From an uncultured Oscillospiraceae bacterium (GTDB lineage Bacteria; Bacillota; Clostridia; Oscillospirales; Oscillospiraceae), in contig CAJOFI010000060.1 in NCBI GenBank assembly GCA_905233595.1, positions 1 to 12,564 on the forward strand: DNA of 12,564 bases, in the 5' to 3' direction. This document shows positions 794-12,564 of the stretch, piece after piece; the first letter of the stretch is position 1, and each line of letters starts with the position of its first letter. A program made the position numbers and the translations under genes. The notes beneath the pieces are model-generated. The model searched no databases, was not told the origin of the DNA, and saw nothing but the letters and a program-made list of their open reading frames with translations.

Positions 794-2269
794 ATGCAGA
801 ACATCCCCGAAGTCAAGCTCGGCATCGTCGCCGTCTCCCGTGACTGCTTCCCCATCGGGCTCTCCATCGCCCGGCGCGAGGCCATCGTCAAGACCTGCGG
901 CGGCAACATCTACGAGTGTCCCGTCACGGTGGAAAACGAGAAGGACATGCTCAAGGCCGTCGCCGACGTGAAGGCCGCCGGCTGCAACGCCCTTGTCGTC
1001 TTCCTCGGCAACTTCGGCCCTGAGACGCCGGAGACGCTGATCGCGAAGAATTTTGACGGCCCCTGCATGTTCGTGGCCGCCGCCGAGGGGGACGGCGACC
1101 TCATCAACGGCCGCGGCGACGCCTACTGCGGCATGCTCAACTGCTCCTACAACCTCGGCATGCGCCACCTCAAGGGCTACATCCCCGAGTACCCCGTCGG
1201 CACCGCTGCGGACATCGGCAAAATGATCAAGGACTTCTACCCCATTGCCCGCGCAATCATCGGCGTGCAGAACCTCAAGATCATCACCTTCGGCCCCCGT
1301 CCGCAGGACTTCTTCGCCTGCAACGCCCCCATCAAGGGGCTCTACGAGCTGGGCGTGGAGATCGAGGAGAATTCGGAGCTCGACCTGCTGGTTTCCTACA
1401 AAGCCCACAAGGGCGACAAGCGCATCCCCGCTGTCTGCGCGGACATGGCCAAAGAGATGGGCGAGGGCAAGTATTTCCCCGACCTGCTCGAGCGCATGGC
1501 GCAGTTTGAGCTGACCCTGCTCGACTGGGCGGAGGAGCACAGGGGCGCGCGCAAGTACATCGCCTTTGCCGACAAGTGCTGGCCCGCCTTCCCGGAGCAG
1601 TTCGGCTTCGAGCCCTGCTTCGTCAACTCCCGTCTCGCCGCGCGCGGCATCCCCGTGAGCTGCGAGGTGGACATCTACGGCGCGCTCTCGGAGTACATCG
1701 GCGCCTGCGTCTCCGGCGACGCGGTGACCATTCTCGACATCAACAACTCCGTCCCCGCGCAGATGTGGGAGAACCAGATCAGGGGCAAGTACGATTACAG
1801 CCTCACCGACACCTTCATGGGCTTCCACTGCGGCAACACCCCGAGCTGCAAGATGTGCTCCGATCGCGCGGTCAAGTACCAGCTCATCCAGCACCGTCTC
1901 CTCGAGCCGGAAGGCTCTGAGCCCGACTTCACGCGCGGCACCCTCGAGGGCGACATCGCCCCCGGTGAGATCACCTTCTACCGCCTCCAGTGCGATTCCG
2001 AGGGCAAGCTGCGCTCCTACATCGCCGAGGGCGAGGTGCTGCCCGTCGCGACGACGAGCTTCGGCGGCATCGGCGTCTTTGCCATCCACGAGATGGGGCG
2101 CTTCTACCGCCATGTGCTGATCCAGAAGCGCTTTCCGCACCACGGCGCGGTGGCCTTCGGGCACCATGGCAAGGCGCTCTTCGAGGTCTTCAAGTTCCTC
2201 GGCGTGGAGGACATCGGCTATAACCAGCCCAAGAGCCTCCCGTACCCGACCGAGAACCCCTGGGCTTGA
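794..2269 (+). CDS. L-fucose/L-arabinose isomerase family protein (FucI-like sugar isomerase)
   Basis: This 491-residue protein resembles the FucI/AraA aldose-ketose isomerase superfamily (COG2407-like), which interconverts aldoses and ketoses in the cytoplasm using Mn2+. The start is an ATG with an AGGAGG Shine-Dalgarno and an A-rich spacer. The N-terminal half contains alternating strands and helices typical of the substrate-binding domains. The family's metal ligands appear to be Glu291 in CEVDIYGALSEY, Asp315 in ILDINNS, and a C-terminal His in FPHHGAVAFGHHG (449-458), by analogy with the Glu/Asp/His triad of FucI. It is shorter than E. coli FucI (about 590) and near the length of AraA. 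It is rich in cysteine (about 17), including a CKMC pair at 352-355. Overlap with neighbours is nil, and the epimerase follows after 15 bases. The true sugar cannot be read from sequence: fucose, arabinose or another aldose are all possible. Confidence 0.85.
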   Translation: MQNIPEVKLGIVAVSRDCFPIGLSIARREAIVKTCGGNIYECPVTVENEKDMLKAVADVKAAGCNALVVFLGNFGPETPETLIAKNFDGPCMFVAAAEGDGDLINGRGDAYCGMLNCSYNLGMRHLKGYIPEYPVGTAADIGKMIKDFYPIARAIIGVQNLKIITFGPRPQDFFACNAPIKGLYELGVEIEENSELDLLVSYKAHKGDKRIPAVCADMAKEMGEGKYFPDLLERMAQFELTLLDWAEEHRGARKYIAFADKCWPAFPEQFGFEPCFVNSRLAARGIPVSCEVDIYGALSEYIGACVSGDAVTILDINNSVPAQMWENQIRGKYDYSLTDTFMGFHCGNTPSCKMCSDRAVKYQLIQHRLLEPEGSEPDFTRGTLEGDIAPGEITFYRLQCDSEGKLRSYIAEGEVLPVATTSFGGIGVFAIHEMGRFYRHVLIQKRFPHHGAVAFGHHGKALFEVFKFLGVEDIGYNQPKSLPYPTENPWA

Positions 2270-2284
2270 GTGGGGGGCGAAGGC

Positions 2285-3307
2285 ATGAACGCGGAAAAAG
2301 TTTTCTTCGGCGCCCTCTCGGACGGGACGGAGGTTCACGCCCTGCGCCTCACGAACGCCTCCGGCGCCTCCGTCACGGTGCTCGACTACGGCGCGACGGT
2401 GCAGTCGCTCCTCGTGCCGGACAGGGACGGGAAGCTCGTTGACGTGGTGCTGGGCTACGACAGCGCGGCGGATTACGAGCGCAATGACGTGTTCCTCGGC
2501 GCGACCATCGGGCGCGTCGGCAACCGCATCGCGAACGCCGCCTTCTCCTTAAACGGCGTGACGTACAAGCTTGCCAGAAACGACGGCGCGAACCATCTGC
2601 ACGGCGGTCTGCGCGGCTTCGATAAGGTGCTGTGGGATATGCAGGCGGAGGGGAGCAGCATCATCTGCACCCGCCTCTCCCCCGACGGGGAGGAGGGCTA
2701 CCCCGGCAATCTGCGCGTCTCCGTCCGCTTCACGCTGACAGAGGACAACGCCCTGCGCATCGCCTACGACGCCGTGAGCGACCGGGACACGCTTGTGAAC
2801 CTCACGAATCACAGCTACTTTAACTTAAACGGCGGCGGCACGGTGCTCGATCACCGGCTCCGGGTCTTCGCCGAGCGCTTCTGCGAGGGGGACGCGGGCT
2901 GCCTGCCCACCGGGCGGCTGCTCCCCGTCGAGGGCACGCCCTTTGACTTCCGCGCGGAAAAGCGCATCGGGGACGATATCGGGGCGGAGCACGAGCAGCT
3001 TCTGCGCGCCGGGGGCTATGACCACAACTACTGCCTTGCCGGAGCGCGCGCGGCGCTTCTGAAAAGCGAGGAGACCGGCATCTCGATGAGCGTGGACACC
3101 GATCTGCCCGGGATGCAGCTGTATTCCGGCAACTTCCTCAAAACGCACCCCGGCAAGGGCGGCCGCGAGATCAAGAAGCGCGGCGCGCTCTGCCTCGAGA
3201 CGCAGCTCTACCCCAACGCGCTCAACTGCTGGGGCTTCCCCTCGCCCGTCCTGCGGGCAGGACAAAGCCTGCACAGCGAAACGGTGTACAGCTTCACGAC
3301 CTTCTGA
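2285..3307 (+). CDS. galM: Aldose 1-epimerase (mutarotase)
   Basis: This 340-residue GalM-family enzyme interconverts alpha and beta anomers of hexoses in the cytoplasm. The sequence has the family hallmarks: NHLHGG at 103-108 (His106), NHSYFNLNG at 175-183 (catalytic acid His176), GYDHNY at 244-249 (Asp246) and the general-base Glu305 in CLETQLYPNA. Length and the beta-sandwich-type repeated strand pattern match the family. The ATG at 2285 is preferred over an in-frame GTG at 2270, because a GGGGGGCGAAGG purine tract lies before it and residues from MNAEKVFFG onward align with the family start. It follows the isomerase by 15 bases and probably shares its transcript, so it would feed the isomerase the correct anomer. 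There is no kinase, aldolase or transporter beside it in the window. Confidence 0.93.
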   Translation: MNAEKVFFGALSDGTEVHALRLTNASGASVTVLDYGATVQSLLVPDRDGKLVDVVLGYDSAADYERNDVFLGATIGRVGNRIANAAFSLNGVTYKLARNDGANHLHGGLRGFDKVLWDMQAEGSSIICTRLSPDGEEGYPGNLRVSVRFTLTEDNALRIAYDAVSDRDTLVNLTNHSYFNLNGGGTVLDHRLRVFAERFCEGDAGCLPTGRLLPVEGTPFDFRAEKRIGDDIGAEHEQLLRAGGYDHNYCLAGARAALLKSEETGISMSVDTDLPGMQLYSGNFLKTHPGKGGREIKKRGALCLETQLYPNALNCWGFPSPVLRAGQSLHSETVYSFTTF

Positions 3308-3546: not shown

Positions 3547-4197
3547 TTACATAATGATCGCTTTCTTCGGGCAGGCGGCGGCGCAGGTGCCGCAGGCGAC
3601 GCAGGCGTCCTCGTCGAGCGCCCAGGTCTTCGCCGCGCGATCCACCGTCAGCGCCCCGGCGGGGCACTTGCGCGCGCAGATCGTGCAGTAGATGCACGTT
3701 GCCGGGTTCTGTACCGGCTTGCCGTCGTCGCGGGGCTTGGGCGGCTCGGCAGCGGCGGGGGCGGCTTTGGGGGCCGCGGCCGCGGGAGCGGGCGCCGCAG
3801 CGGGCTTGGGGGGAGCGGCCTTCTTCACCGGCGGCTTCTTGATGAAGGTGCCGGAGACGATCAGATCCTCCTCCTTCGTCGCGATCATGTGGTAATCCTG
3901 CGTCAGCTCGATCGCGCCGTGGTTGCAGAAATCCATGCAGTGCGCGCAGAAGGTGCAGCAGCCGAGGTTGAAGCTGCGGGTGATCTTGTCGCCCTCCTCG
4001 GTCTTCTCCACGGTATGGGTGATCGCGCCGCCGCAGCAGACGCGCTCGCACATCATGCAGTTGATGCACTTGGAGGGGTCAAAGGCGATGCGCCCGCGAT
4101 AGCGCGGCGCGGCGACGCTCTCCACCGCCGGGTACATGGCGCAGCTCGGCTTGGAGAAGAGCTGGGCGATAGCCTCCTTCACAAAGGGAAAATCCAT
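3547..4197 (-). CDS. mbhN: Hydrogenase iron-sulfur subunit (MbhN/NuoI-like) with extra C-terminal 2[4Fe-4S] ferredoxin domain
   Basis: This 216-residue protein carries four CxxCxxCxxxC motifs. The core pair is Cys44/47/50/54 and Cys81/84/87/91, in the position expected for the NuoI/MbhN/EchF subunit that passes electrons to the NuoB-like subunit. Unusually, neither motif has the usual Pro after its last Cys. Residues about 120-163 form a linker almost wholly of Ala, Pro and Lys. A second ferredoxin unit follows, Cys168/171/174/178-Pro and Cys199/202/205/209-Pro. NuoI-type subunits normally have only the first pair, so the tail looks like an added tethered ferredoxin that could accept electrons from a soluble donor. 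The ATG at 4197 shares a base with the stop of mbhJ (TAATG), after an AAGGAGGG site, which implies translational coupling. It is the last gene before the terminator. Confidence 0.88.
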   Translation of the reverse strand: MDFPFVKEAIAQLFSKPSCAMYPAVESVAAPRYRGRIAFDPSKCINCMMCERVCCGGAITHTVEKTEEGDKITRSFNLGCCTFCAHCMDFCNHGAIELTQDYHMIATKEEDLIVSGTFIKKPPVKKAAPPKPAAAPAPAAAAPKAAPAAAEPPKPRDDGKPVQNPATCIYCTICARKCPAGALTVDRAAKTWALDEDACVACGTCAAACPKKAIIM

Positions 4198-4640
4198 TAC
4201 TTCTTCGCCCTCCTTTTCTCCTGCAGGAGCTTCGTCGCGAGCGCGAGCCCGTCGATGACGGCCTCGGGCTTCGGGGTGCAGCCGGCCACGTCCACGTCCA
4301 CATGCACGTACTTCGACAGCGGGCCGCAGATCGAATAGCTTCCGCGAAAGACGTTGCCCGACTGCGGGCAGGAGCCCATCGTCACGATGCACCTCGGCTC
4401 CGGCACCTGCTCGATGGAGCGCAGCACGCGCGGCAGGGACTGGGCGGTGATGGGGCCGGTGACGACCACGATGTCGGCGTGGCGGGGGCTGCCCGCGAGC
4501 TTGAAGCCCAGGCGCTCCGCGTCATAGCGCGGGGTGAGCACGCTCACAAGCTCGATATCGCAGCCGTTGCAGGAGCCGGCGTTGATGTGGAAGAGCCACG
4601 GGGATTTGCCGGTGCTCTCCTCGATCAGTTTTTGAAACAT
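4197..4640 (-). CDS. mbhJ: Group 4 [NiFe] hydrogenase small subunit (MbhJ/NuoB-like)
   Basis: This 147-residue protein belongs to the NuoB/hydrogenase small subunit family, which carries the proximal [4Fe-4S] cluster next to the nickel site. The four ligands are visible: Cys24 and Cys27 in GSCNGCDIE, Cys91 in MGSCPQSG and Cys121 in VAGCTPKPEAV. It has no Tat signal, no membrane anchor and no medial or distal clusters, consistent with a cytoplasm-facing subunit of an energy-converting hydrogenase. An AAGGAGG site precedes the ATG, 12 bases after the mbhM stop. Electron flow would be MbhN to MbhJ to the catalytic centre of MbhL. On its own it could be mistaken for complex I NuoB; the linked catalytic large subunit with both CxxC motifs decides for hydrogenase. 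Confidence 0.92.
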   Translation of the reverse strand: MFQKLIEESTGKSPWLFHINAGSCNGCDIELVSVLTPRYDAERLGFKLAGSPRHADIVVVTGPITAQSLPRVLRSIEQVPEPRCIVTMGSCPQSGNVFRGSYSICGPLSKYVHVDVDVAGCTPKPEAVIDGLALATKLLQEKRRAKK

Positions 4641-4652
4641 CAGGGCACCTCC

Positions 4653-5672
4653 TTACAGACCGTACCAGGCCAGCACCAGGCTCACAAGCGCCAGGGCGGA
4701 GACCACGGTCCAGTAGAACTTGAAGATCTGCTCGATCTTGAGGCGGGCGGTGACCGCGTGCACGAAGGAGATGGACACCGCCGTTACGGCCACGCACAGC
4801 GCGAAGAGCAGCAGCACGCCGAGCAGCGTGATCGCCGCCCCGGCAAGCCCGCCGCTGAGCCCCAGCGCCGCGACCAGCGCCTCGATCCGGCCGCCGAGCC
4901 CGCCGAAGAAGAGCATCACGAAAAGGCTCGTCATCGTCAGCAGCTTGACGGCGTGGTTGAGCTTGAAGACGCCGAGGGGCGCGCCGCTGTACTCGGCCAG
5001 CATGCCCTCGCAGATCTCCGTCTCGGCCTCGGCCGCGTCAAAGGGGTGGCTGCCCGTCTCGCCGGGGATGACCATGAGGAAGGCCACCGCCGCCGGGAGC
5101 ATGCTCAGGCGCAGCACGAGACTGCCGTTTGCCATCTGGTAGCGCACGATCTCGGTCAGCGAGAAGCAGATGCCGCTGCCCGTGGCGGCGCCGACCTTCT
5201 TGCCGACCGCGAGCAGCACCAGCACCAGCGGCAGCTCGCAGGAGAGCACGGTCACCATCTCGCGGCTGAGACCCACGCCCGCGTAGGGCGAGCCGGTGGA
5301 CGCGCCGCCCACCATGATGGAGAGCGCCGGGATGAGCAGCAGATAGAGGATCACGATCACGTCCGCGACGTTGGAGAAGGCGGTGAAGCCGAAGACCGGG
5401 ATGAAAAGCTGCAGCACCACGAGCGCCGCGAGCCCCACCAGCGGGGCGAGCAGGAAGACCGTGCGGTTCGCCGCGTCCGGGACGATGGTCTCCTTGCCGC
5501 AGAGCTTGAAGAAGTCGTAGAAGGGCTGCAAAATCGGAGGGCCGACGCGCTTTTGCATCCGCGCCACGAGCTTGCGGTCAATGCCGCAGAGCAGCATGCC
5601 CGTCAGAAAGCAGAAGAGAAAGCCCGGGAAAATGAGGACGTAGGAGAGATATTTCAAAGCGTCTAAAATCAT
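4653..5672 (-). CDS. mbhM: Membrane anchor subunit (MbhM/NuoH-like)
   Basis: This 339-residue, highly hydrophobic protein of the NuoH/EchB/HycD family anchors the hydrogenase arm to the membrane arm and forms part of the ion path under the quinone-site-like cavity. Conserved loops are visible: the first cytoplasmic loop IDRKLVARMQKRVGPP (31-46), and the acidic loop PFDAAEAETEICEGMLAEYS (210-229), whose glutamates link redox chemistry to ion transfer in this family. Several transmembrane segments are evident, for instance 9-29, 71-95, 102-121, 138-156 and near the C terminus. The ATG at 5672 has a GGAGGTG site and lies 12 bases from the mbhH stop. In archaeal mbh operons this gene follows the large subunit, whereas here it follows the antiporter-like subunits. 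Confidence 0.93.
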   Translation of the reverse strand: MILDALKYLSYVLIFPGFLFCFLTGMLLCGIDRKLVARMQKRVGPPILQPFYDFFKLCGKETIVPDAANRTVFLLAPLVGLAALVVLQLFIPVFGFTAFSNVADVIVILYLLLIPALSIMVGGASTGSPYAGVGLSREMVTVLSCELPLVLVLLAVGKKVGAATGSGICFSLTEIVRYQMANGSLVLRLSMLPAAVAFLMVIPGETGSHPFDAAEAETEICEGMLAEYSGAPLGVFKLNHAVKLLTMTSLFVMLFFGGLGGRIEALVAALGLSGGLAGAAITLLGVLLLFALCVAVTAVSISFVHAVTARLKIEQIFKFYWTVVSALALVSLVLAWYGL

Positions 5673-5684
5673 GTTCCCACCTCC

Positions 5685-7533
5685 TTACAGAACAATCAGG
5701 GCGTAGACGATGGCAAGCGCCAGCGCCACCACCGCCCAGAGGGCGTAATCGTTGACGACGCCGCTGTGCAATTCGTGCATGAAGCCGAAGTAGTGACGCC
5801 AGTTGTGCTTGAAGCCCCAGAACAGATCGTCGCCGCCCACCTGGGAGAAGACGGTCTCCTCGCCGCCGTAGAACAGCTCGTACTTGCCGCCGCGGCTCTC
5901 GGGGGACTTCACGCTCACGCGGTCATATTTGCCGGCGATGGCGACGACGGTTACCGCGAGCAGGGCGATCATCAGCAGGCACAGCCAGGATACCGGGCTC
6001 CACACGCCGACGGTGGCAAAGCCCACGCGCTCAGCCGGGATCGCGGCATAGCCCTCGCCCATCATGGCGTTGACGTAAGCGCCGACGGAGAACACCGCGC
6101 GGGCGGCGGGCTCGGTCAGATAGCGGGTGACGAGGTTCGGGAAGAGGCCCGTCACCACGCAGAGGGTCGCGAAGATGCCCATCGCGAAGCGCATCCCGAA
6201 GGGAACTTCCTTCACGTCCTCGTACTCCTTCGGCAGCTGGCCGAAGAAGACGGACTGCGTGACCTTCACGAAGGAGGCGAGCGTCAGCGTCGAGGTGACG
6301 AGCGCGCAGACCGTGACGAGCAAAAAGCCGATGTTGCCGGTCTCCACGGCCTTCTGGTAGGTGGCCTGGTAGATCATCCACTTGGAGGCAAAGCCGTTGA
6401 AGGGCGGGATGCCGCTGATGGAGAAGGCGCCGATCAGGAAAAGCACGGTCGTGTGCGGCATCTTCTTCGACAGGCCGCCGAGCTTTCCGAGATCGGTGGT
6501 GCCCGTCTCATGCAGCACAGCGCCCGCCGCGAGGAACAAAAGCCCCTTGAAGAGCGTGTGGTTCATCGCGTGGTAGAGCCCGGCGGAGACGCCGAAGGCG
6601 GTGCAGAGCCCGACGGAGGCGAGAACGTAGCCGATCTGGGAGATGGAGTGGAAAGCGAGCAGACGCTTGAAGTCATGCTGCGCCAGCGCCATCGTGACGC
6701 ACACGAACATCGAAACGCTCCCGAGGAAGACGAGCCAGAACTGCATCGAGCCGAGCGCCATCGTGCGGAAGAGGAAGTAGCACAGACGGATGAGGCCGTA
6801 GATGCCGCTCTTGGTCAGCACGCCGGAGATGAGCACCGAGATGGAGGCCGGCGCCGCGCCGTGGGCGTCCGCCGCCAGCGGATGGAAGGGCACGAGGAAG
6901 GCCTTGGTGCAAAAGCCGATGAACAGCAGCGCGAAAGCGACCTTGGTCGCGGCGCTGAGATCGCCGGGGATCAGCGCGGCGAGCTGCGCGAGGTTTAAGG
7001 TGTGGTGCTGGGCGTAGAGCATGATCGTCCCCGCGAGGATGCAGGTCGAGCCGATGCAGCCGACGACCAGGTACTTGAACGCCGCCTCCAGCGCGCCGTT
7101 TGCGGTGTTGCGGAAGGCCGTGAGCGCGACGGCGGCGAAGGTCAGGATCTCCACCATGATGAACATGTTGAAGAGGTCGCCCGAGAGCACGAGACCCATC
7201 ACGCCGCCCGCGAGCATCAGAAACAGCGTGTAATACTGGGGCACGTTGTCGTCGTGGCTCATGTACTGGATGGAGTAGATGCAGGCGACGAAGACGACGC
7301 AGCTCACGAGAAGCCCGAAGAACAGGCTCAGCGCGTCCACCTCCAGCGCGATGCCGATGGCATAGCCGCCGGAGATGCCGCGATTGCCCATCCAGTAGGC
7401 GATGATCTCGCCCTTGCCCATCACGCGGGGCACCAGGGAGATCAGCAGGCCCGAAGACCACGATCAGAAAGGCGCCGAGGAAGAGCACCATGATCGAATA
7501 GATCGGGAAATGCTGAAGACTAAGCCAATTCAT
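5685..7533 (-). CDS. mbhH: Antiporter-like subunit MbhH (MrpD/NuoL-like), probably fused to an MbhI-like tail; one-base frameshift near the 5' end
   Basis: This is a proton-conducting, NuoL/M/N-like membrane subunit. The natural start is the ATG at 7533, which overlaps the mbhG stop (ATGA) and has an AAGGAGG site. This frame reads MNWLSLQHFPIYSIMVLFLG and on to VVFG, then runs out of register. The bulk continues in another frame from about 7448 (LLISLVPRVMGKGE) to the stop at 5685. One extra base in CTTCGGGCCTGC (7446-7456) explains this; removing it gives 615 residues. Key residues in that numbering include Glu128 in VEILTFAAVALT, Lys210 in GFCTKAF, His224 in DAHGAAP and Lys241 in LTKSG, matching the ion-path charges of the family. 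The last 80 or so residues (534-615) add a soluble stretch, then WGFKHNWRHY, HSGVVNDYALW and a final membrane helix, as in NuoL-type C-termini or separate MbhI. A downstream start near 7433 would lack the first helix. Confidence 0.85.
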
Positions 7534-7880
7534 CCTCTCAGCCTCCTTATCTCACGGGTGTCGATGGTGCCGTAGCTCTCCTCAAGCTTGATGACGAGGG
7601 CAAGGCTCATCGCGGTCACGCAGGCGCCGATGACGATGCTGGTGAGGGTGAGCGCCTGGGGGATGGGATCGACGAAGAAGCTTGCGGGGTTCAGCTCACC
7701 CGGGGTGAAGATCGGGGCGGTGCCGCCGGGGTTGAAGCCGATCGTGATGATGAGCAGGTTTACGCCGTAGTCCATGATGGACAGCCCGATCACGGTCTTG
7801 ATGAGGTTGTACTTCACCACGATGCAGTACAGCCCCAGCGCGATCAGGAAGAAGGCGGCGATGTAGTTTACTGTAATCAT
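7530..7880 (-). CDS. mbhG: Antiporter subunit MbhG (MrpC/MnhC, NuoK-like)
   Basis: This 116-residue membrane protein has three hydrophobic helices in the NuoK/MrpC pattern. The conserved segment KYNLIKTVIGLSIMDYGVNL (23-42), followed by LLIITIG, and the later PIPQALTLTSIVIGACVTAM are typical of MrpC, where the loop and Thr/Ser-rich third helix contribute to the ion path. A GAGGAGGGCAGC site precedes the ATG, 12 bases after the mbhF stop, and its stop overlaps the mbhH start by 4 bases. It works in the Mrp-like module with MbhH, in the same membrane position as NuoK in complex I. Confidence 0.93.
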   Translation of the reverse strand: MITVNYIAAFFLIALGLYCIVVKYNLIKTVIGLSIMDYGVNLLIITIGFNPGGTAPIFTPGELNPASFFVDPIPQALTLTSIVIGACVTAMSLALVIKLEESYGTIDTREIRRLRG

Positions 7881-7892
7881 GTGCTGCCCTCC

Positions 7893-8354
7893 TCAATCCG
7901 TGGTGTCGATGTCCCTGCCGGCGAGCAGGCTGATCATCAGAAGCGAGATCGAGCCGATGCCGGTAATGACCTTCACGCCGACGGCGAGATTCATCCAGAA
8001 AATGGTGCCGCTGCTGTACAGCTCGCCCACCGCGCCGTGGGTGTAGAGCACGTTCTGACAGAACTGCGCGCCCGCCGCGACGCCCATCAGCGCCAGCGCC
8101 ACGTACACGATGGAGGCCGCGCCCTCGCTCTTGTGCAGGGTGTGGTAGCTCAGCGCGTCCACCGTCGCCTCAAAGCCGTGGCCGAGGTAGAGCAGGATGA
8201 CGACGCCCGCCATCAGCACGCCGCCCTGGAAGCCGCCGCCGGGGGAGAGGTGGCCGTGCAGGATGATGTAGAGCACGTAGACGAGCGCAAAGGGGAGGAT
8301 CGCGTCACAGCCGCAGCGTTGGATGACGCGCTTGATGACCGGCTTGTTATTCAT
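7893..8354 (-). CDS. mbhF: Antiporter subunit MbhF (MrpB/MnhB-like)
   Basis: This 153-residue membrane protein carries the MrpB hallmark HGHLSPGGGFQGGVLMAG (about residues 33-50) between hydrophobic helices and ends in a short charged tail, RDIDTTD. The ATG at 8354 is chosen over further upstream starts because it has an AAGGAGGAG site and begins MNNKPVIKRVIQR as in the family; the longer frame upstream encodes Arg-rich non-homologous residues. The start lies 8 bases inside the end of mbhE, so translation is likely coupled. In Mrp antiporters and Mbh this subunit belongs to the small-subunit cluster implicated in Na+ handling. The His-Leu-Ser-Pro-Gly loop is the most conserved part. Confidence 0.92.
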   Translation of the reverse strand: MNNKPVIKRVIQRCGCDAILPFALVYVLYIILHGHLSPGGGFQGGVLMAGVVILLYLGHGFEATVDALSYHTLHKSEGAASIVYVALALMGVAAGAQFCQNVLYTHGAVGELYSSGTIFWMNLAVGVKVITGIGSISLLMISLLAGRDIDTTD

Positions 8355-8706
8355 CGCTTTTCTCCTCCTTCTTTTCCTTTTTGGTGTAGAGTATGACCAC
8401 CGCGCCCGCGACGGCGGTGATGAGGATAAAGGCCTCGCCCATCGTGTCGTAGCCACGGAAGTCAAAGACAATGGAGGTCACGTCGTTCTGGGCGTGGGTC
8501 TTCTCCAGGTTCTGCTGCACGATGGCAGCGGCCGCGCCGTCGGCCTGACTGTCGTCGTAAGCCGCGGGGTCCTGCTGCAGCGCATAGACGGAGACCGCGG
8601 CCTTCTGCCCCTCGTAGGTGCGGGGCATGTCCGCCATGTCGAGGCAGGCGTAGATGCCCGCGAAGAGGAACACGGCGAGGCAGAGATAAGTAAGGAATTT
8701 TTTCAT
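8347..8706 (-). CDS. mbhE: MbhE-like subunit (corresponds to the last part of MrpA)
   Basis: This 119-residue protein has an N-terminal helix (about 4-22), an extracytoplasmic loop of some 55 residues, then the conserved SIVFDFRGYDTMGEAFILIT (78-97) leading into a second helix, and a charged KKEKKEEKSDE tail facing the cytoplasm. The FDFRGYDTxGEA motif is characteristic of MbhE and of the corresponding C-terminal domain of MrpA. Its ATG overlaps the mbhD stop by 4 bases. The loop between the helices, rich in Gln, Ala and Asp, is the least conserved part. Splitting the MrpA C-terminal region into separate MbhD and MbhE genes, with no full-length MrpA, is the arrangement known from membrane-bound hydrogenases. 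Confidence 0.88.
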   Translation of the reverse strand: MKKFLTYLCLAVFLFAGIYACLDMADMPRTYEGQKAAVSVYALQQDPAAYDDSQADGAAAAIVQQNLEKTHAQNDVTSIVFDFRGYDTMGEAFILITAVAGAVVILYTKKEKKEEKSDE

Positions 8707-8957
8707 TTATCGTCCCCTCCTCTGAGCTTTTTCAGGGCGACGATGAAGATCAGCGGGCTGAGCGCCGCGCCGACGGCGGCCTCGGAGATCGCAACGTCCG
8801 GCGCGTGCAGCAGCAGGAACTCCGCCGCGGCGAAGATGCCCACCACGCCGAGCGCGATGACGGAGCTTAAAAGCTTCTCAAAGTGCACCGCGAGGATCGC
8901 GCTGGTCACAAGCCCCGCGATCACGAGGAAATTGAGCGCCACGATCAAATTACTCAT
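8703..8957 (-). CDS. mbhD: MbhD-like subunit (DUF4040, MrpA-domain protein)
   Basis: This 84-residue protein has three hydrophobic helices and the DUF4040 signature LLLHAPDVAISEAAVGAALS (50-69), which corresponds to the MbhD part of MrpA. The acidic residues in APDVAISEA are conserved in the family and are thought to lie near the ion path. The start at 8957 (MSNLIVALNF) is preferred over an upstream ATG-like start at 8981, because a GGAGGGA site lies just before it and it matches the family N terminus. It starts 8 bases inside the end of mbhC and its stop overlaps mbhE by 4 bases. Confidence 0.9.
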   Translation of the reverse strand: MSNLIVALNFLVIAGLVTSAILAVHFEKLLSSVIALGVVGIFAAAEFLLLHAPDVAISEAAVGAALSPLIFIVALKKLRGGDDK

Positions 8958-9294
8958 CGAAATCCCTCCTGAACTCGTCAACCTCCATGGGCTTGTCGGG
9001 GCGGATACCGTGTCTGTACGCGCCCTTTGCGATGCCGTGGGCGCCGACGGGGTTGGTCACGAAGACCAGCAGCGCGATCACGCAGACCTTGATCGCCGCC
9101 TGGGCGCTGCCCATGACGAAGATCGCGTACAGCAGCGCGCCCAGCATCACGCCCAGCATGCCGAGGGTGGTGATGCAGGTGCTGGCCTGCATGCGGCTGA
9201 AGGTATCGGGCATTTTGATGACGCCGATGGTGCCCGCCGTGGCGAAGATCGCCCCGATGAAGATCAGCAGGTCACTGAGAATCCGAATCAGCAT
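8950..9294 (-). CDS. mbhC: Antiporter subunit MbhC (MrpG/MnhG-like)
   Basis: This 114-residue membrane protein contains the MrpG hallmark GTIGVIKMPDTFSRMQAST (about 21-39) followed by TLGMLGVMLG, then two more hydrophobic stretches and a charged C-terminal tail rich in Asp, Glu and Arg. I chose the ATG at 9294 rather than a TTG at 9318, since AGGGAGGT lies at good distance upstream and the protein then begins MLIRILSDLL as in other MrpG proteins. It starts inside the last codons of mbhB and overlaps the start of mbhD, so it sits in a tightly packed set of Mrp-like genes. Confidence 0.91.
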   Translation of the reverse strand: MLIRILSDLLIFIGAIFATAGTIGVIKMPDTFSRMQASTCITTLGMLGVMLGALLYAIFVMGSAQAAIKVCVIALLVFVTNPVGAHGIAKGAYRHGIRPDKPMEVDEFRRDFDE

Positions 9295-9556
9295 CGTAAT
9301 GCCACCTCCCTCTGTCAAGATAACGGCCGACCAGCATCGTGTCGATGATGCCGAGCATGGCGCTGATGATCGCGATATCGAGGTACACCCCGCGCCCGGA
9401 GTAGAGCGAGAAGAGCACCAGCGCGCAGGTGATGAGGATATCCGCCGAGTCCCCGGCGACCTGGCGGTCAGCCGAGGTGGGGCCCTTCGCGAGGCGGTAG
9501 AGGTTCATGAGCGCGAGCACCGCGAAGAAGATCGAAAAAATCAGAAAGTCGCTCAT
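9272..9556 (-). CDS. mbhB: Antiporter subunit MbhB (MrpF/MnhF-like)
   Basis: This 94-residue membrane protein has three hydrophobic helices and the MrpF hallmark YRLAKGPTSADRQVAGDSA (20-38), followed by LYSGRGVYLDIAIISAMLG. The C-terminal tail is hydrophilic (DRGRWHYDADSDSQ). The ATG at 9556 overlaps the mbhA stop by 4 bases (ATGA), which indicates translational coupling and decides the start over longer in-frame versions that would run back through mbhA. It acts with MbhA and MbhC in the membrane arm. Confidence 0.91.
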   Translation of the reverse strand: MSDFLIFSIFFAVLALMNLYRLAKGPTSADRQVAGDSADILITCALVLFSLYSGRGVYLDIAIISAMLGIIDTMLVGRYLDRGRWHYDADSDSQ

Positions 9557-10071
9557 TCCCACACCCCCTTGAGTCCGTTTTCGAGCTTGCCCTTGATGAT
9601 GTCCCCGGCTTCCTTGCCGGTGGCGGTCACGTCGATCCAGTGAATATAATAGTAGGTCTGCCCCTCCTGCTCGGCGATGTCCAGGGTGATGGTGCCGGGG
9701 GTGAGGGTGATGGAGTTGGCCAGAGCCGCCTGGCCGTAGTCGGATTTGAGATCCACGGGCACCTTGACGATGCCGGGGTTGATGTCGGTGCAGCCGGTGA
9801 AGCAGCGGCGCGCCATGTCCACGTTGGCCTTCCACAGCTCCACGGGGAAGGTGAAGCACCAGTAGCCCAGCAGCTTCAGGAGACGGACGGGGTTAAAGAA
9901 CCAGCCGGCCTTCTCGTGGATGAAGAAACGCGCGGAGAAGAGCGCCACCGCAAGGCTCACCACGGCGCCCGCGATCAGCTCCTCCGGCTTGAAGCTGAAA
10001 TCCAGCAGCAGCCAGAACAGAAAGCAGACCGCGAAGGTGGCAAGCACCGCGGGAAAGGTTGTTTTGCGCAA
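9553..10071 (-). CDS. mbhA: Antiporter subunit MbhA (MrpE/MnhE-like), TTG start
   Basis: This 172-residue protein has two N-terminal membrane helices (about 7-24 and 32-48) and a cytoplasmic domain with the MrpE signature NSITLTPGTITLDI (about 118-131), then YYYIHWIDV. Start is TTG at 10071, with AAGGAG 10 bases upstream; no in-frame ATG is closer to the family N terminus. It opens the block of Mrp-like genes, which is separated from hypA by a 137-base gap full of repeats, so it may have its own promoter or depend on read-through. In archaeal mbh operons this gene comes first; here the catalytic subunits precede it. Confidence 0.88.
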   Translation of the reverse strand: MRKTTFPAVLATFAVCFLFWLLLDFSFKPEELIAGAVVSLAVALFSARFFIHEKAGWFFNPVRLLKLLGYWCFTFPVELWKANVDMARRCFTGCTDINPGIVKVPVDLKSDYGQAALANSITLTPGTITLDIAEQEGQTYYYIHWIDVTATGKEAGDIIKGKLENGLKGVWE

Positions 10072-10100
10072 GAGGCAACAGCTCCTTTTCGTTGAAATTG

Positions 10101-10206
10101 GTGGTCAGTGGCCGGTAATCAGTGGTCAGTGAAGCTGTCCCCTTCGGGGACGAAGGATAATAAGTCGCAAAGCGACACCATAACTTTTCACTTTTCTCTA
10201 TTCACT
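10101..10206 (-). repeat. Composite intergenic repeat, copy A, between hypA and mbhA
   Basis: The 137-base hypA-mbhA gap is mostly short repeats. Read on the minus strand, 10206-10174 matches copy B (12104-12136, plus strand) at 30 of 33 positions, including GTGAAAAGTTATGG. It is followed by two hairpins: GTCGC/GCGAC around AAA (10164-10176) and GTCCCC/GGGGAC around a 3-base loop (10137-10151). GTGGTCAGTG then occurs twice (10101-10110 and 10122-10131). Neither hairpin has a following T-run, so they are not clear terminators, but they could protect or separate parts of the operon message. Confidence 0.65.
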
Positions 10207-10208
10207 TT

Positions 10209-10550
10209 TCACTCGACCTTGAGGTTTTCCACAAAGAACTCCCGGCCGGCAATCATGCGGATGTGCTCGCCGCCGCAGCGCGGGCAGGCGGCGGCATGCC
10301 GGGGGAGGGGGCCTTCATAGCCGCAGTCGGGGCAGGAGAAGGCGGCGGGCACCGGCTCGAGCACGAGCCTTGCGCCCTCTGCCCTTGTACCTTTTGAGGC
10401 GATGGGGAAAAATTCGAGCAGGCATTCCGGAACCACGCCGGAGAATTCGCCCACCCGGAGCGAGATCTCCAGCACCCGGGTGAAGCCGTTTTTCTTCCCC
10501 TCCTGCTCCACGATGGCGATGATGCCCTCGGTCAGTGCAAGCTCGTGCAT
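10209..10550 (-). CDS. hypA: Hydrogenase nickel incorporation protein HypA
   Basis: This 113-residue protein is the HypA nickel chaperone, which with HypB delivers Ni2+ to the large subunit before it is closed. The N terminus MHELALTEGI carries the nickel-binding His2 and Glu3. The zinc site is Cys73, Cys76, Cys89 and Cys92 in CPDCG and CPRCGG. Length matches the family. The ATG shares one base with the stop of mbhL (TGATG), so its translation is tied to that of the subunit it matures. Such an internal hypA is unusual, since hyp genes normally form their own block; hypE lies upstream of mbhK in this window and other hyp genes may lie beyond it. Confidence 0.95.
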   Translation of the reverse strand: MHELALTEGIIAIVEQEGKKNGFTRVLEISLRVGEFSGVVPECLLEFFPIASKGTRAEGARLVLEPVPAAFSCPDCGYEGPLPRHAAACPRCGGEHIRMIAGREFFVENLKVE

Positions 10551-11632
10551 CAGCGGTCGAGACAGCTGAAGCAGGGGTCGATGCTCGCGATGATGAGCCC
10601 CGCGTCCGCGACGCTGTTGTTGCGGAGCATGAAGGGCACCGTGGGGGTGTTCTTGAAGCTCGGCACATGCACGGAGACGCGGTGGTTCGTGAGCGAGCCG
10701 TTGCCGACGACCATGTGGCTCAATTGACCGCGCGGCGCCTCGTGGCGGCAGACGGCCTGCCCCTCCTTGATCTTGGGGAGCTTGGTGCCGAGGTTGATGG
10801 GGCCTTCGGGCAGATTCTCCAGCGCCTGCTGGATGATCTTGATGCTCTCGTAGCACTCGAGGGCGCGCACGACCACGCGGGCGAACACGTCGCAGCTGTC
10901 CACCACGGGCACCTTGAACTCAAACTCGTCGTAGCAGCTGTACGGCGCGTCGCGTCTGACGTCGATATCCACGCCCGAGGCGCGGGCATGGGGGCCGACC
11001 GCGCCGAGACGGATGGCGTCCGCCGTCGGCAGCACGCCGACGCCCTTGGTGCGCATGGCGATGGTCTTGTCGGTCAGGGCGATCTCGGTGATGCGGTCGA
11101 GCGGCGCCTTGAGCTTCTGGCAGGCGTCGAGGATCTCGCGCCGCAGCTCGTCGTCGATGTCGCGCCGCGCGCCGCCGATGGTGACCATCGCGTAGTTGAC
11201 GCGGTTGCCGGTCATCTTCTCGAGAATGTCCATCACCAGCTCGCGCTCGTCCCAGATGTGCATGAACATGCTGTCATGCCCGATGATGTGGCAGGCGATG
11301 CCCAGCCACAGGAAATGGGAGTGCAGGCGCTCCAGCTCCGCCGTGATGACGCGGATATACTGCCCGCGCCTGGGCACCTCGGTGCCGTTGATGGCCTCCA
11401 CGCACATGGCGTAGGTGAAGGCGTGGGAGTGCGAGCAGATGCCGCACACGCGCTCGACCAGCACCAGGGTCTGGATGGCGTTGCGCTCGGTGGCGAGCTT
11501 TTCGATGCCGCGATGGTTGTAGCCGACGAAGCACTCCGCGTCCTTGATGATCTCACCCTCGGTGTAGAGCCTGGCGTGGATCGGCTCCTCCAGGGCGGGA
11601 TGGTAGGGCCCGATGGGTACGATATAGCTCAT
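10550..11632 (-). CDS. mbhL: Group 4 [NiFe] hydrogenase catalytic large subunit (MbhL/NuoD-like)
   Basis: This 360-residue protein is the catalytic subunit. Both nickel-binding motifs are intact: Cys63 and Cys66 in ERVCGICSHSH, and Cys354 and Cys357 in DPCFSC. This marks a true hydrogenase, unlike complex I NuoD or Mbx/Mbs-type relatives that have lost them. HEAPRG (297-302) and the preceding SHSH/ERLHSHFLW regions are typical of group 4 enzymes. The chain ends only three residues after the last Cys (LDR), so there is no C-terminal peptide to be cleaved off by an endopeptidase; CooH and EchE are reported to be similar. The ATG overlaps the mbhK stop by 4 bases with an AAAGGAGG site. Expected reaction: 2 H+ plus reduced ferredoxin to H2, on the cytoplasmic side of the membrane. 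Confidence 0.95.
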   Translation of the reverse strand: MSYIVPIGPYHPALEEPIHARLYTEGEIIKDAECFVGYNHRGIEKLATERNAIQTLVLVERVCGICSHSHAFTYAMCVEAINGTEVPRRGQYIRVITAELERLHSHFLWLGIACHIIGHDSMFMHIWDERELVMDILEKMTGNRVNYAMVTIGGARRDIDDELRREILDACQKLKAPLDRITEIALTDKTIAMRTKGVGVLPTADAIRLGAVGPHARASGVDIDVRRDAPYSCYDEFEFKVPVVDSCDVFARVVVRALECYESIKIIQQALENLPEGPINLGTKLPKIKEGQAVCRHEAPRGQLSHMVVGNGSLTNHRVSVHVPSFKNTPTVPFMLRNNSVADAGLIIASIDPCFSCLDR

Positions 11633-12027
11633 TGCGCGGCCTCCTTTTTGTTTTTCTCCACCAGCTCGCTCAGCGGCGTCACCATGATCTGGCCGCGCCC
11701 CTGCGTCTCAAGCAGATCCTCCGGCAGGAAGAGGCGCTGGCTCATGTCCAGCCCCTCGAACGTGAGGCCGAAGAGCTCGTTGAGCTCGCGCTCCGCCCAG
11801 GTGGCGGCGGTGTCGTAGATCTCGCCGATGGACGGCAGCACCGTCTCGCCCACCACATGGTAGGACTCGATGGCGGGGTCCACCGCGTAATCCCAGGACA
11901 CGTCCGGCTGCCCCTCCTTGTTCAGGAAGGCGTGGATCATCACGAGATACACGTTCTGCCTGCGCATACGCTCGGCGATGGGGACGATCTCGTCTTTGCT
12001 GATGTCGATGCGTTTGTACTCTTGCAA
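11629..12027 (-). CDS. mbhK: Hydrogenase subunit MbhK (NuoC-like), TTG start
   Basis: This 132-residue protein is related to the 30-kDa NuoC/EchD family, which packs against the large subunit. The conserved segment DTAATWAERELNELFGLTFE (72-91), followed by RLFLPEDLL, is the family signature. It is shorter than NuoC, about as expected for group 4 hydrogenases. The start is TTG at 12027, with GAGGTG upstream at workable distance; no ATG is available in frame at that end (the ATG within GTGATGTAA leads directly to a stop). It is the first gene of the catalytic block and is overlapped by mbhL by 4 bases. In front lies a 131-base gap with copy B of a short repeat. Confidence 0.88.
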   Translation of the reverse strand: MQEYKRIDISKDEIVPIAERMRRQNVYLVMIHAFLNKEGQPDVSWDYAVDPAIESYHVVGETVLPSIGEIYDTAATWAERELNELFGLTFEGLDMSQRLFLPEDLLETQGRGQIMVTPLSELVEKNKKEAAQ

Positions 12028-12158: not shown

Positions 12159-12564
12159 CTAACATATTCTCGGCAATTGCGCTCCCGCCAATTTCTGCAA
12201 AACTCTTCTCCCGCCGAGGGCGGTTTTGATGAGCAGCTTTCCGGGGGCGGCGGCGCTCACGACGCCGATCTGCGCGGCGTCTTCCCCCTCGGGCAGACTT
12301 CGCATGCTATCGAGCGCCCTCTCCGCGTCCTCGGGCGCGACGACGGCGAGGAGCTTGCCCTCGTTTGCGCAGTAGAGCGGCTCGAGCCCCAGCATGCCGC
12401 AGGCGGCCTTCACCGCCGGGCGCACCGGGATCGCGTCCTCGCGCAGCTCGATGCCAAGGGCGCTGCGCTCCACGAACTCGTTGAGCGTCGTCGCGACGCC
12501 GCCGCGCGTCGGGTCGCGCAGGACGCGCACCCGCGCCCCGCTCTCAAGCAGGGCGGCGCAGAGG
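12159..12564 (-). CDS. hypE: Hydrogenase maturation protein HypE, C-terminal part (5' end outside the window)
   Basis: The frame is open from the right edge to a TAG at 12159 and encodes 134 complete residues of the C-terminal half of HypE. HypE dehydrates the S-carbamoyl group made with HypF into thiocyanate, the source of the cyanide ligands of the active-site iron. Diagnostic features are LRDPTRGGVATTLNEFVE, the NEGKLLAVVAPEDAERAL segment, and above all the C-terminal LPRIC, whose last Cys carries the carbamoyl/cyano group. It is transcribed in the same direction as the hydrogenase genes and lies 131 bases upstream of mbhK, so the maturation genes probably continue beyond the window. A GTG at 12530 is not the real start, because homology continues to the edge. 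Confidence 0.95.
   Translation of the reverse strand, partial: LCAALLESGARVRVLRDPTRGGVATTLNEFVERSALGIELREDAIPVRPAVKAACGMLGLEPLYCANEGKLLAVVAPEDAERALDSMRSLPEGEDAAQIGVVSAAAPGKLLIKTALGGRRVLQKLAGAQLPRIC

Follow-up and report, generated by a model that had tools for sequence, protein, structure and literature searches.

Contig G000:C60 of an uncultured Oscillospiraceae bacterium carries on its minus strand, from position 12027 to position 3547, an operon for a [NiFe] hydrogenase with Mrp-like antiporter genes, and the locus raises the question of which kind of enzyme this is and what a second, ferredoxin-like domain at the end of its MbhN subunit might do. The window (the whole stretch of DNA analysed, 12,564 nt) is this contig, one of 264 in a parent genome of 1.73 Mb estimated to be 85% complete and 6% contaminated. 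An earlier reading of the letters, hereafter the original prediction, had proposed a complete Mbh/Mrp-type operon of permuted gene order. We find that the operon is an Mrp-linked group-4 [NiFe] hydrogenase, a variant shared across a lineage, and that the part worth following is the second MbhN domain, absent from the original prediction. On balance, we consider it probable that this is a ferredoxin-driven enzyme of Oscillospiraceae, mostly from the gut, in which the extra domain, here called the arm, serves as a tethered electron relay and whose large subunit matures without a HycI-type peptidase.

Relatives were taken as the best 80 of 148 matching stretches from a locus search with the window operon, their record titles naming Clostridia, Clostridiales, Eubacteriales, Ruminococcaceae, Oscillospiraceae, Ca. 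Limivicinus and one 'uncultured bacterium'. An MbhL (L) homologue of some kind was present in 217 genomes of a 398-genome sample of the phylum, where a close L occurred, besides the window's genome, only in G069 (71%; next best 53%). In a 150-genome sample of the family, the close form (L at least 71%) was found in 9 genomes, the window's own included, and in 5 of 106 genera.

The ferredoxin arm of MbhN

The mbhN gene (NuoI-like; 3547..4197, minus strand, as are all operon coordinates below) encodes 216 residues that fall into the usual two-cluster domain and, joined to it by a linker rich in Ala, Pro and Lys, another 2[4Fe-4S] domain (3550..3732) resembling clostridial ferredoxin (matches to 1clf and 1fca). 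Against solved structures, the whole chain scored highest with multi-cluster ferredoxin proteins, its first domain about equally with Mbs (58 bits) and Mbh (53 bits). AlphaFold placed the two folded parts at a pLDDT of ~82 and, for the arm, ~90, on either side of a linker at 43-56 (pTM 0.40).

The number of extra modules varied among relatives. Among 69 relatives, MbhN (N) could be read cleanly in 63 and had no extra module (3 proteins), one (44), two (9) or three (7); the other six, with a truncated, broken or ambiguous N, were not counted. On a quick L tree of 76 rows (71 distinct L proteins, with five genomes represented twice and one of the six uncounted N readmitted), arm copy number changed at least 10 times. 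Two database searches (best 120 of 827 and best 120 of 324 matches) together yielded 179 distinct N homologues, in which we counted four cluster motifs in 103, six in 37, eight in 23, ten in 6, twelve in 2, fourteen in 1 and odd counts in 7. The six ten-motif proteins consist of a window-type MbhN core followed by four modules; the core of the 12- and 14-motif proteins is nearer the Ech type (52% vs 28%). Among these Ech-like N proteins, P0278 reaches 667 residues with 14 cluster motifs, and P0281 588 residues with 12. Purifying selection acts equally on arm and core, with an omega of 0.099 and 0.098, respectively (33 near-relative pairs considered, modules being skipped where lengths differed).

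Outside the family, 38 N-type open reading frames (ORFs) lie in the phylum sample beside group-4 or complex-I large subunits, with one motif in 3 and two in 35, and an extra ferredoxin arm was found at none of these 38 loci. Within the family, all three Ech-type loci fetched had arms (G561, four motifs; G459 and G549, eight each), and an Ech-type locus from the same order had an N with two motifs; these loci, like that of G451 considered below, were typed by gene set and order, not by tree placement. In a set of modules from 25 hand-picked proteins, arms of the window clade are 77% identical among themselves, 49% to Ech arms and 31% to their own core, as expected if these arms arose separately. 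In a tree of 87 such modules (56 columns, few supported forks), one group with support (97) brings together modules from Ech arms and from four-module MbhN-like proteins, pointing to exchange between these or to a common origin. Given this mixed group, the claim of an independent gain of arms was given up, and the modules are too short for the tree to decide arm origin. Nor was a recent donor of the arm module found; across 12 of 17 genomes carrying the operon (carriers), the best non-MbhN match by E-value was 52% identical and lies in G398, whose own N is armless. We tentatively suggest that Mrp-linked and Ech-type hydrogenases of one family may have gained tandem ferredoxin arms, by parallel gain or by module exchange, that such arms could be tethered wires or antennae coupling the pump directly to ferredoxin-reducing enzymes, and that species may have adjusted the length of their arms by duplicating or losing modules.

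Among the top-ranked open-licence papers, none dealt, by title and start of abstract, with ferredoxin arms of MbhN or EchF, or with this operon in Oscillospiraceae. The nearest idea among them is a protein nanowire built from the subunits of a tungsten enzyme (PMC10413684).

Enzyme type and large-subunit maturation

The large subunit gene mbhL (10550..11632) was assigned from domains, structure match and motifs. Its 360-residue product contains four NiFe cysteines in the motifs RVCGIC (L1; 11435..11452, position counted from the translation) and DPCFSCLDR (L2; 10553..10579, by motif search), the latter forming the final residues. A comparison with the Protein Data Bank (PDB) covered A, F, G, H, J, L, M and N. 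The best solved-structure match was the Mbh of Pyrococcus furiosus (6cfw) for L, H, J, M and F, with L scoring 289 bits to Mbh, 254 to HycE and 160 to Mbs; for A and G, the sister Mbs complex (6u8y) came ahead of Mbh. Free Mrp antiporters scored lower wherever matched. The Mbh-like subunit set originally predicted is thus corroborated by the 6cfw and 6u8y matches.

Placement of L within the Mbh group, the phylogenetic check attached to the same prediction, had a different outcome. In a tree of 54 L rows, the 12 rows of the window clade (100/100) are separate from Mbh (95/95), Ech (100/100), Coo, Hyc and a group from three-antiporter complexes (92/74), and the Mbh clade unites P. furiosus MbhL with two canonical-order bacterial L proteins (95/95), leaving the window outside. 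The backbone was poorly supported, the program issued a long-branch warning, and Mbh comprised three rows, one on a long branch. In approximately unbiased (AU) tests, the grouping of window and Mbh was marginally rejected (p = 0.0485), marginally because the Mbh group has only three rows, and none of the other groupings was rejected: window with three-antiporter (0.17), window with Coo (0.271), window with Ech (0.231), three-antiporter with Mbh (0.244) and all of window, Mbh and three-antiporter (0.293). MbhL forms a clade of its own beside archaeal-type Mbh, deeper branching not being settled by the tree. Membership of Mbh proper (HydDB group 4d) was dropped on the tree, the missing L tail and the gene order, and identity with Ech (4e) on the presence of the Mrp block, which the six-subunit Ech set lacks, and on the separate Ech L clade, although the AU test did not reject the sister grouping of window and Ech.

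Compared to the Mbh of P. furiosus and Thermococcus kodakarensis, the window operon has the same subunit types and an Mrp-like block; it differs in the ferredoxin arm on N, the gene order, the separate L clade, an MbhI apparently fused to H and an L devoid of C-terminal extension, whereas pre-MbhL of T. kodakarensis is cleaved. The HydDB 4g Mrp-linked enzymes of Thermosphaera aggregans, Cloacimonadota and Omnitrophota, which we compared by description only, likewise join an Mrp-type module to a NiFe hydrogenase; bacterial members have been reported (PMC8542988), and 4g has been described as a loosely clustered group (PMC5037454). Ech-type (4e) and CO-linked (4c) enzymes share the large subunit without C-terminal extension, and the family's Ech loci the N arms, but they are without the Mrp A-G block and their L clades are separate. 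Closest among the L proteins sampled outside the family (47-53% identical) are those of three-antiporter [NiFe] complexes of Bacillota (L114-L122, L126-L129), which, unlike the window, have three antiporter-like subunits, no Mrp block and L tails of 28-47 residues. A further Mrp-linked A-H cluster, L145 of G371, has a fused K+L without either NiFe motif pattern and is possibly not a hydrogenase.

All 80 relatives have an L that ends at the residues DR after the second NiFe motif, with no C-terminal extension, as do 11 further family loci (five from genomes already among the 80). Tails of 28-47 residues were present in two canonical-order loci, 13 three-antiporter loci and two Hyc loci, and absent from five Coo rows and 11 of 14 Ech rows, the other three Ech rows falling outside the motif pattern. 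The HycI peptidase family was detected in none of the 17 carriers, 11 of which have genomes at least 90% complete, and in none of 20 relatives; as a control of this search, three of 14 genomes scored (E. coli and two archaea). Having no C-terminal extension, MbhL therefore probably matures without a HycI-type peptidase. Since enzymes of groups 4c, 4e and certain 4g are also naturally extension-less (PMC7294309), the missing tail is common to several groups and by itself no novelty.

Predicted electron flow and rival explanations

In the mechanism that we propose, reduced ferredoxin would donate electrons at MbhN; these would travel along a pair of [4Fe-4S] clusters of MbhN and a single one of MbhJ before reaching the NiFe site of MbhL, where protons would be reduced to H2, and the M/H and A-G membrane parts would spend the energy on moving H+ and/or Na+. 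The arm, one to several 2[4Fe-4S] modules on flexible linkers, would most probably be a tethered relay at the point of electron entry that speeds electron capture from oxidoreductases or free ferredoxin. For Mbh, the published path runs from ferredoxin through MbhN, MbhJ and MbhL, with H+ pumped by M/H and Na+/H+ exchanged by A-G (PMC11228991). Judged from sequence, the enzyme probably evolves H2 from ferredoxin and pumps ions in doing so, H2 evolution, its direction and the coupling ion being what we infer. The window genome also encodes a V-type K-ring protein and an F-type c-subunit, on G000:C179 and G000:C188, from which we draw no conclusion as to the coupling ion.

Several observations weigh against this proposal, which is built here from genes, motifs, order, homology and conservation. 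The arm is absent from 3 of the 63 cleanly read relatives and from genera g2, g319 and g366, so that the enzyme can do without it. At a further, non-Ech group-4 locus of the family, seen on a fragmentary contig of G451, N (L198) likewise has no arm and two motifs. Short ferredoxin-like ORFs (57-71 residues) exist in several carriers, so that in those the arm is no substitute for free ferredoxin. The five AlphaFold models of the window N range in mean pLDDT from 73 down to 50, and the model of a three-module homologue is poor (mean pLDDT 43). In this contig, moreover, the reading frame of mbhH is broken, and the C-terminal part of H matched only MbhI (6cfw_I) in the PDB, weakly (E = 0.013).

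The armless relatives would suit a plain Mbh, as in Thermococcales, with rearranged genes and an MbhN tail that is a passive leftover drifting in copy number. The subunit set, the best structure matches and the repeated changes in copy number (at least 10 on the L tree) favor such an explanation, which we nevertheless hold to be rather unlikely: selection on the arm equals that on the core, arms occur on the family's Ech enzymes too, L lacks a tail and no HycI was found with it, and L falls outside the Mbh clade, though the AU test is marginal. That the enzyme works mainly in reverse, H2 uptake reducing ferredoxin at the expense of membrane potential and the arm passing electrons to a ferredoxin-using partner, appears more doubtful still. 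A reverse mode has been proposed for the related Hfo complex (PMC7886697), and the Rnf/Nqr-type genes of 14 of the 17 carriers could supply the gradient; on the other side, direction cannot be read from sequence, and 12 of the 17 carriers have [FeFe] hydrogenase genes, as many fermenters do. In both of these gene counts, absence from an incomplete genome is weak evidence. Very improbable, finally, is that the complex is no hydrogenase at all but a relative such as Mbs or complex I. The best NCBIfam matches of L are NuoD-like, if under their cut-offs, but a NuoD/complex I identity was rejected on the presence in L of both NiFe cysteine pairs, which the complex I rows of the tree do not have; hyp genes lie within the operon as well, and this reading is already contradicted by NiFe motifs and maturation genes together.

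With its natural series of armless and one- to four-module forms, this subunit would make it possible to measure how tethered electron carriers affect an ion pump. The system also bears on H2 production and energy saving by gut fermenters. In sheep rumen, group 4g was among the hydrogenases with the highest RNA/DNA ratios and was described as functionally unresolved (PMC6776011).

Gene order, mbhH and neighbouring genes

Read along the minus strand, the operon has the originally predicted order K, L, hypA, A, B, C, D, E, F, G, H, M, J, N, with the small subunit J some ten genes away from L and, again in agreement, no separate mbhI found at the locus. The operon was also thought to begin with K, which is not the case: the 3′ part of hypE (12159..12564; AIRS_C domain) precedes K and is cut by the contig end at 12564, and in relative L003, whose L is 97% identical to that of the window, hypF-hypC-hypD and a full hypE lie ahead of K (hypF, hypD and hypE named by NCBIfam, hypC from its MCLAVP start). 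The hypB gene of the window genome lies away from the operon, on C59. Adjacent genes overlap or are separated by fewer than 15 nt, save at three junctions: hypE-K (131 nt), hypA-A (137 nt) and that between G and what remains open of H (96 nt). The hypA-A gap (10072-10208) contains degenerate short repeats and is almost absent from relative L158.

Gene order in T. kodakarensis Mbh is A-I, then J-N (PMC4549637), and two other Bacillota loci, L133 and L135, have this canonical order with a separate I-like ORF. In all 80 closest loci, the genes present follow hypE-K-L-hypA-A-B-C-D-E-F-G-H-M-J-N as far as the contig reaches; 67 extend from hypE to N, two from K to N, and 11 stop earlier, which we attribute to contig edges from locus lengths, not locus by locus. 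The order is the same in family genera g324 and g366; in sister genera g319 and g2, hypE-K is placed after N, and g2 additionally has hypB after hypA. The gene order is thus ordinary for its clade. For Thermosphaera aggregans, a cluster with all Mbh subunits in rearranged order is already in print (PMC7886697). With this precedent and the 80 loci, the gene-neighbourhood comparison leaves no novelty to the permuted order, which was dropped as the finding itself.

Upstream of the small subunit mbhJ (4197..4640; best PDB match 6cfw_J) lie mbhM (NuoH-like; 4653..5672; domain and structure match) and mbhH (antiporter-like; 5685..7533). From its start at 7533, mbhH loses its frame between ~7448 and ~7414 (the break lying near 7414-7448), where the window is ~56 nt shorter than L003, L004, L036 and a fourth relative, leaving an open remainder of 582 residues vs ~640 in relatives. 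Database relatives of mbhH (best 120 of 6243) are mostly 632-648 residues long, the closest 93% identical. The break could be an assembly error or a real lesion. Of the predicted 'complete' operon, the subunit types A-H and J-N are indeed present, but with its mbhH out of frame, this copy is not complete. The MbhI-like C-terminal part of H (5697..6008) is the region with 6cfw_I as its sole PDB match, and an H profile picked up separate ORFs of 113 and 110 residues following H at loci L133 and L135; H probably includes MbhI as a C-terminal fusion.

The remaining operon genes are mbhK (NuoC/30 kDa family, PF00329; TTG start; 11629..12027), the nickel chaperone gene hypA (10209..10550; TIGR00100 above cut-off), mbhA (MrpE-like; TTG start; 9553..10071; NCBIfam and structure match), mbhB (MrpF-like; 9272..9556; NCBIfam), mbhC (MrpG-like; 8950..9294; TIGR01300 above cut-off), mbhD (MrpA C-terminal part, DUF4040; 8703..8957), mbhE (8347..8706; PF20501 MbhE above cut-off), and mbhF (MrpB-like; 7893..8354) and mbhG (MrpC-like; 7530..7880), both by family and structure match. 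An Rfam scan of the window gave no match at the gathering threshold. On the plus strand, positions 794-3307 carry a fucose isomerase-like gene followed by an aldose 1-epimerase gene, convergent with the hydrogenase operon.

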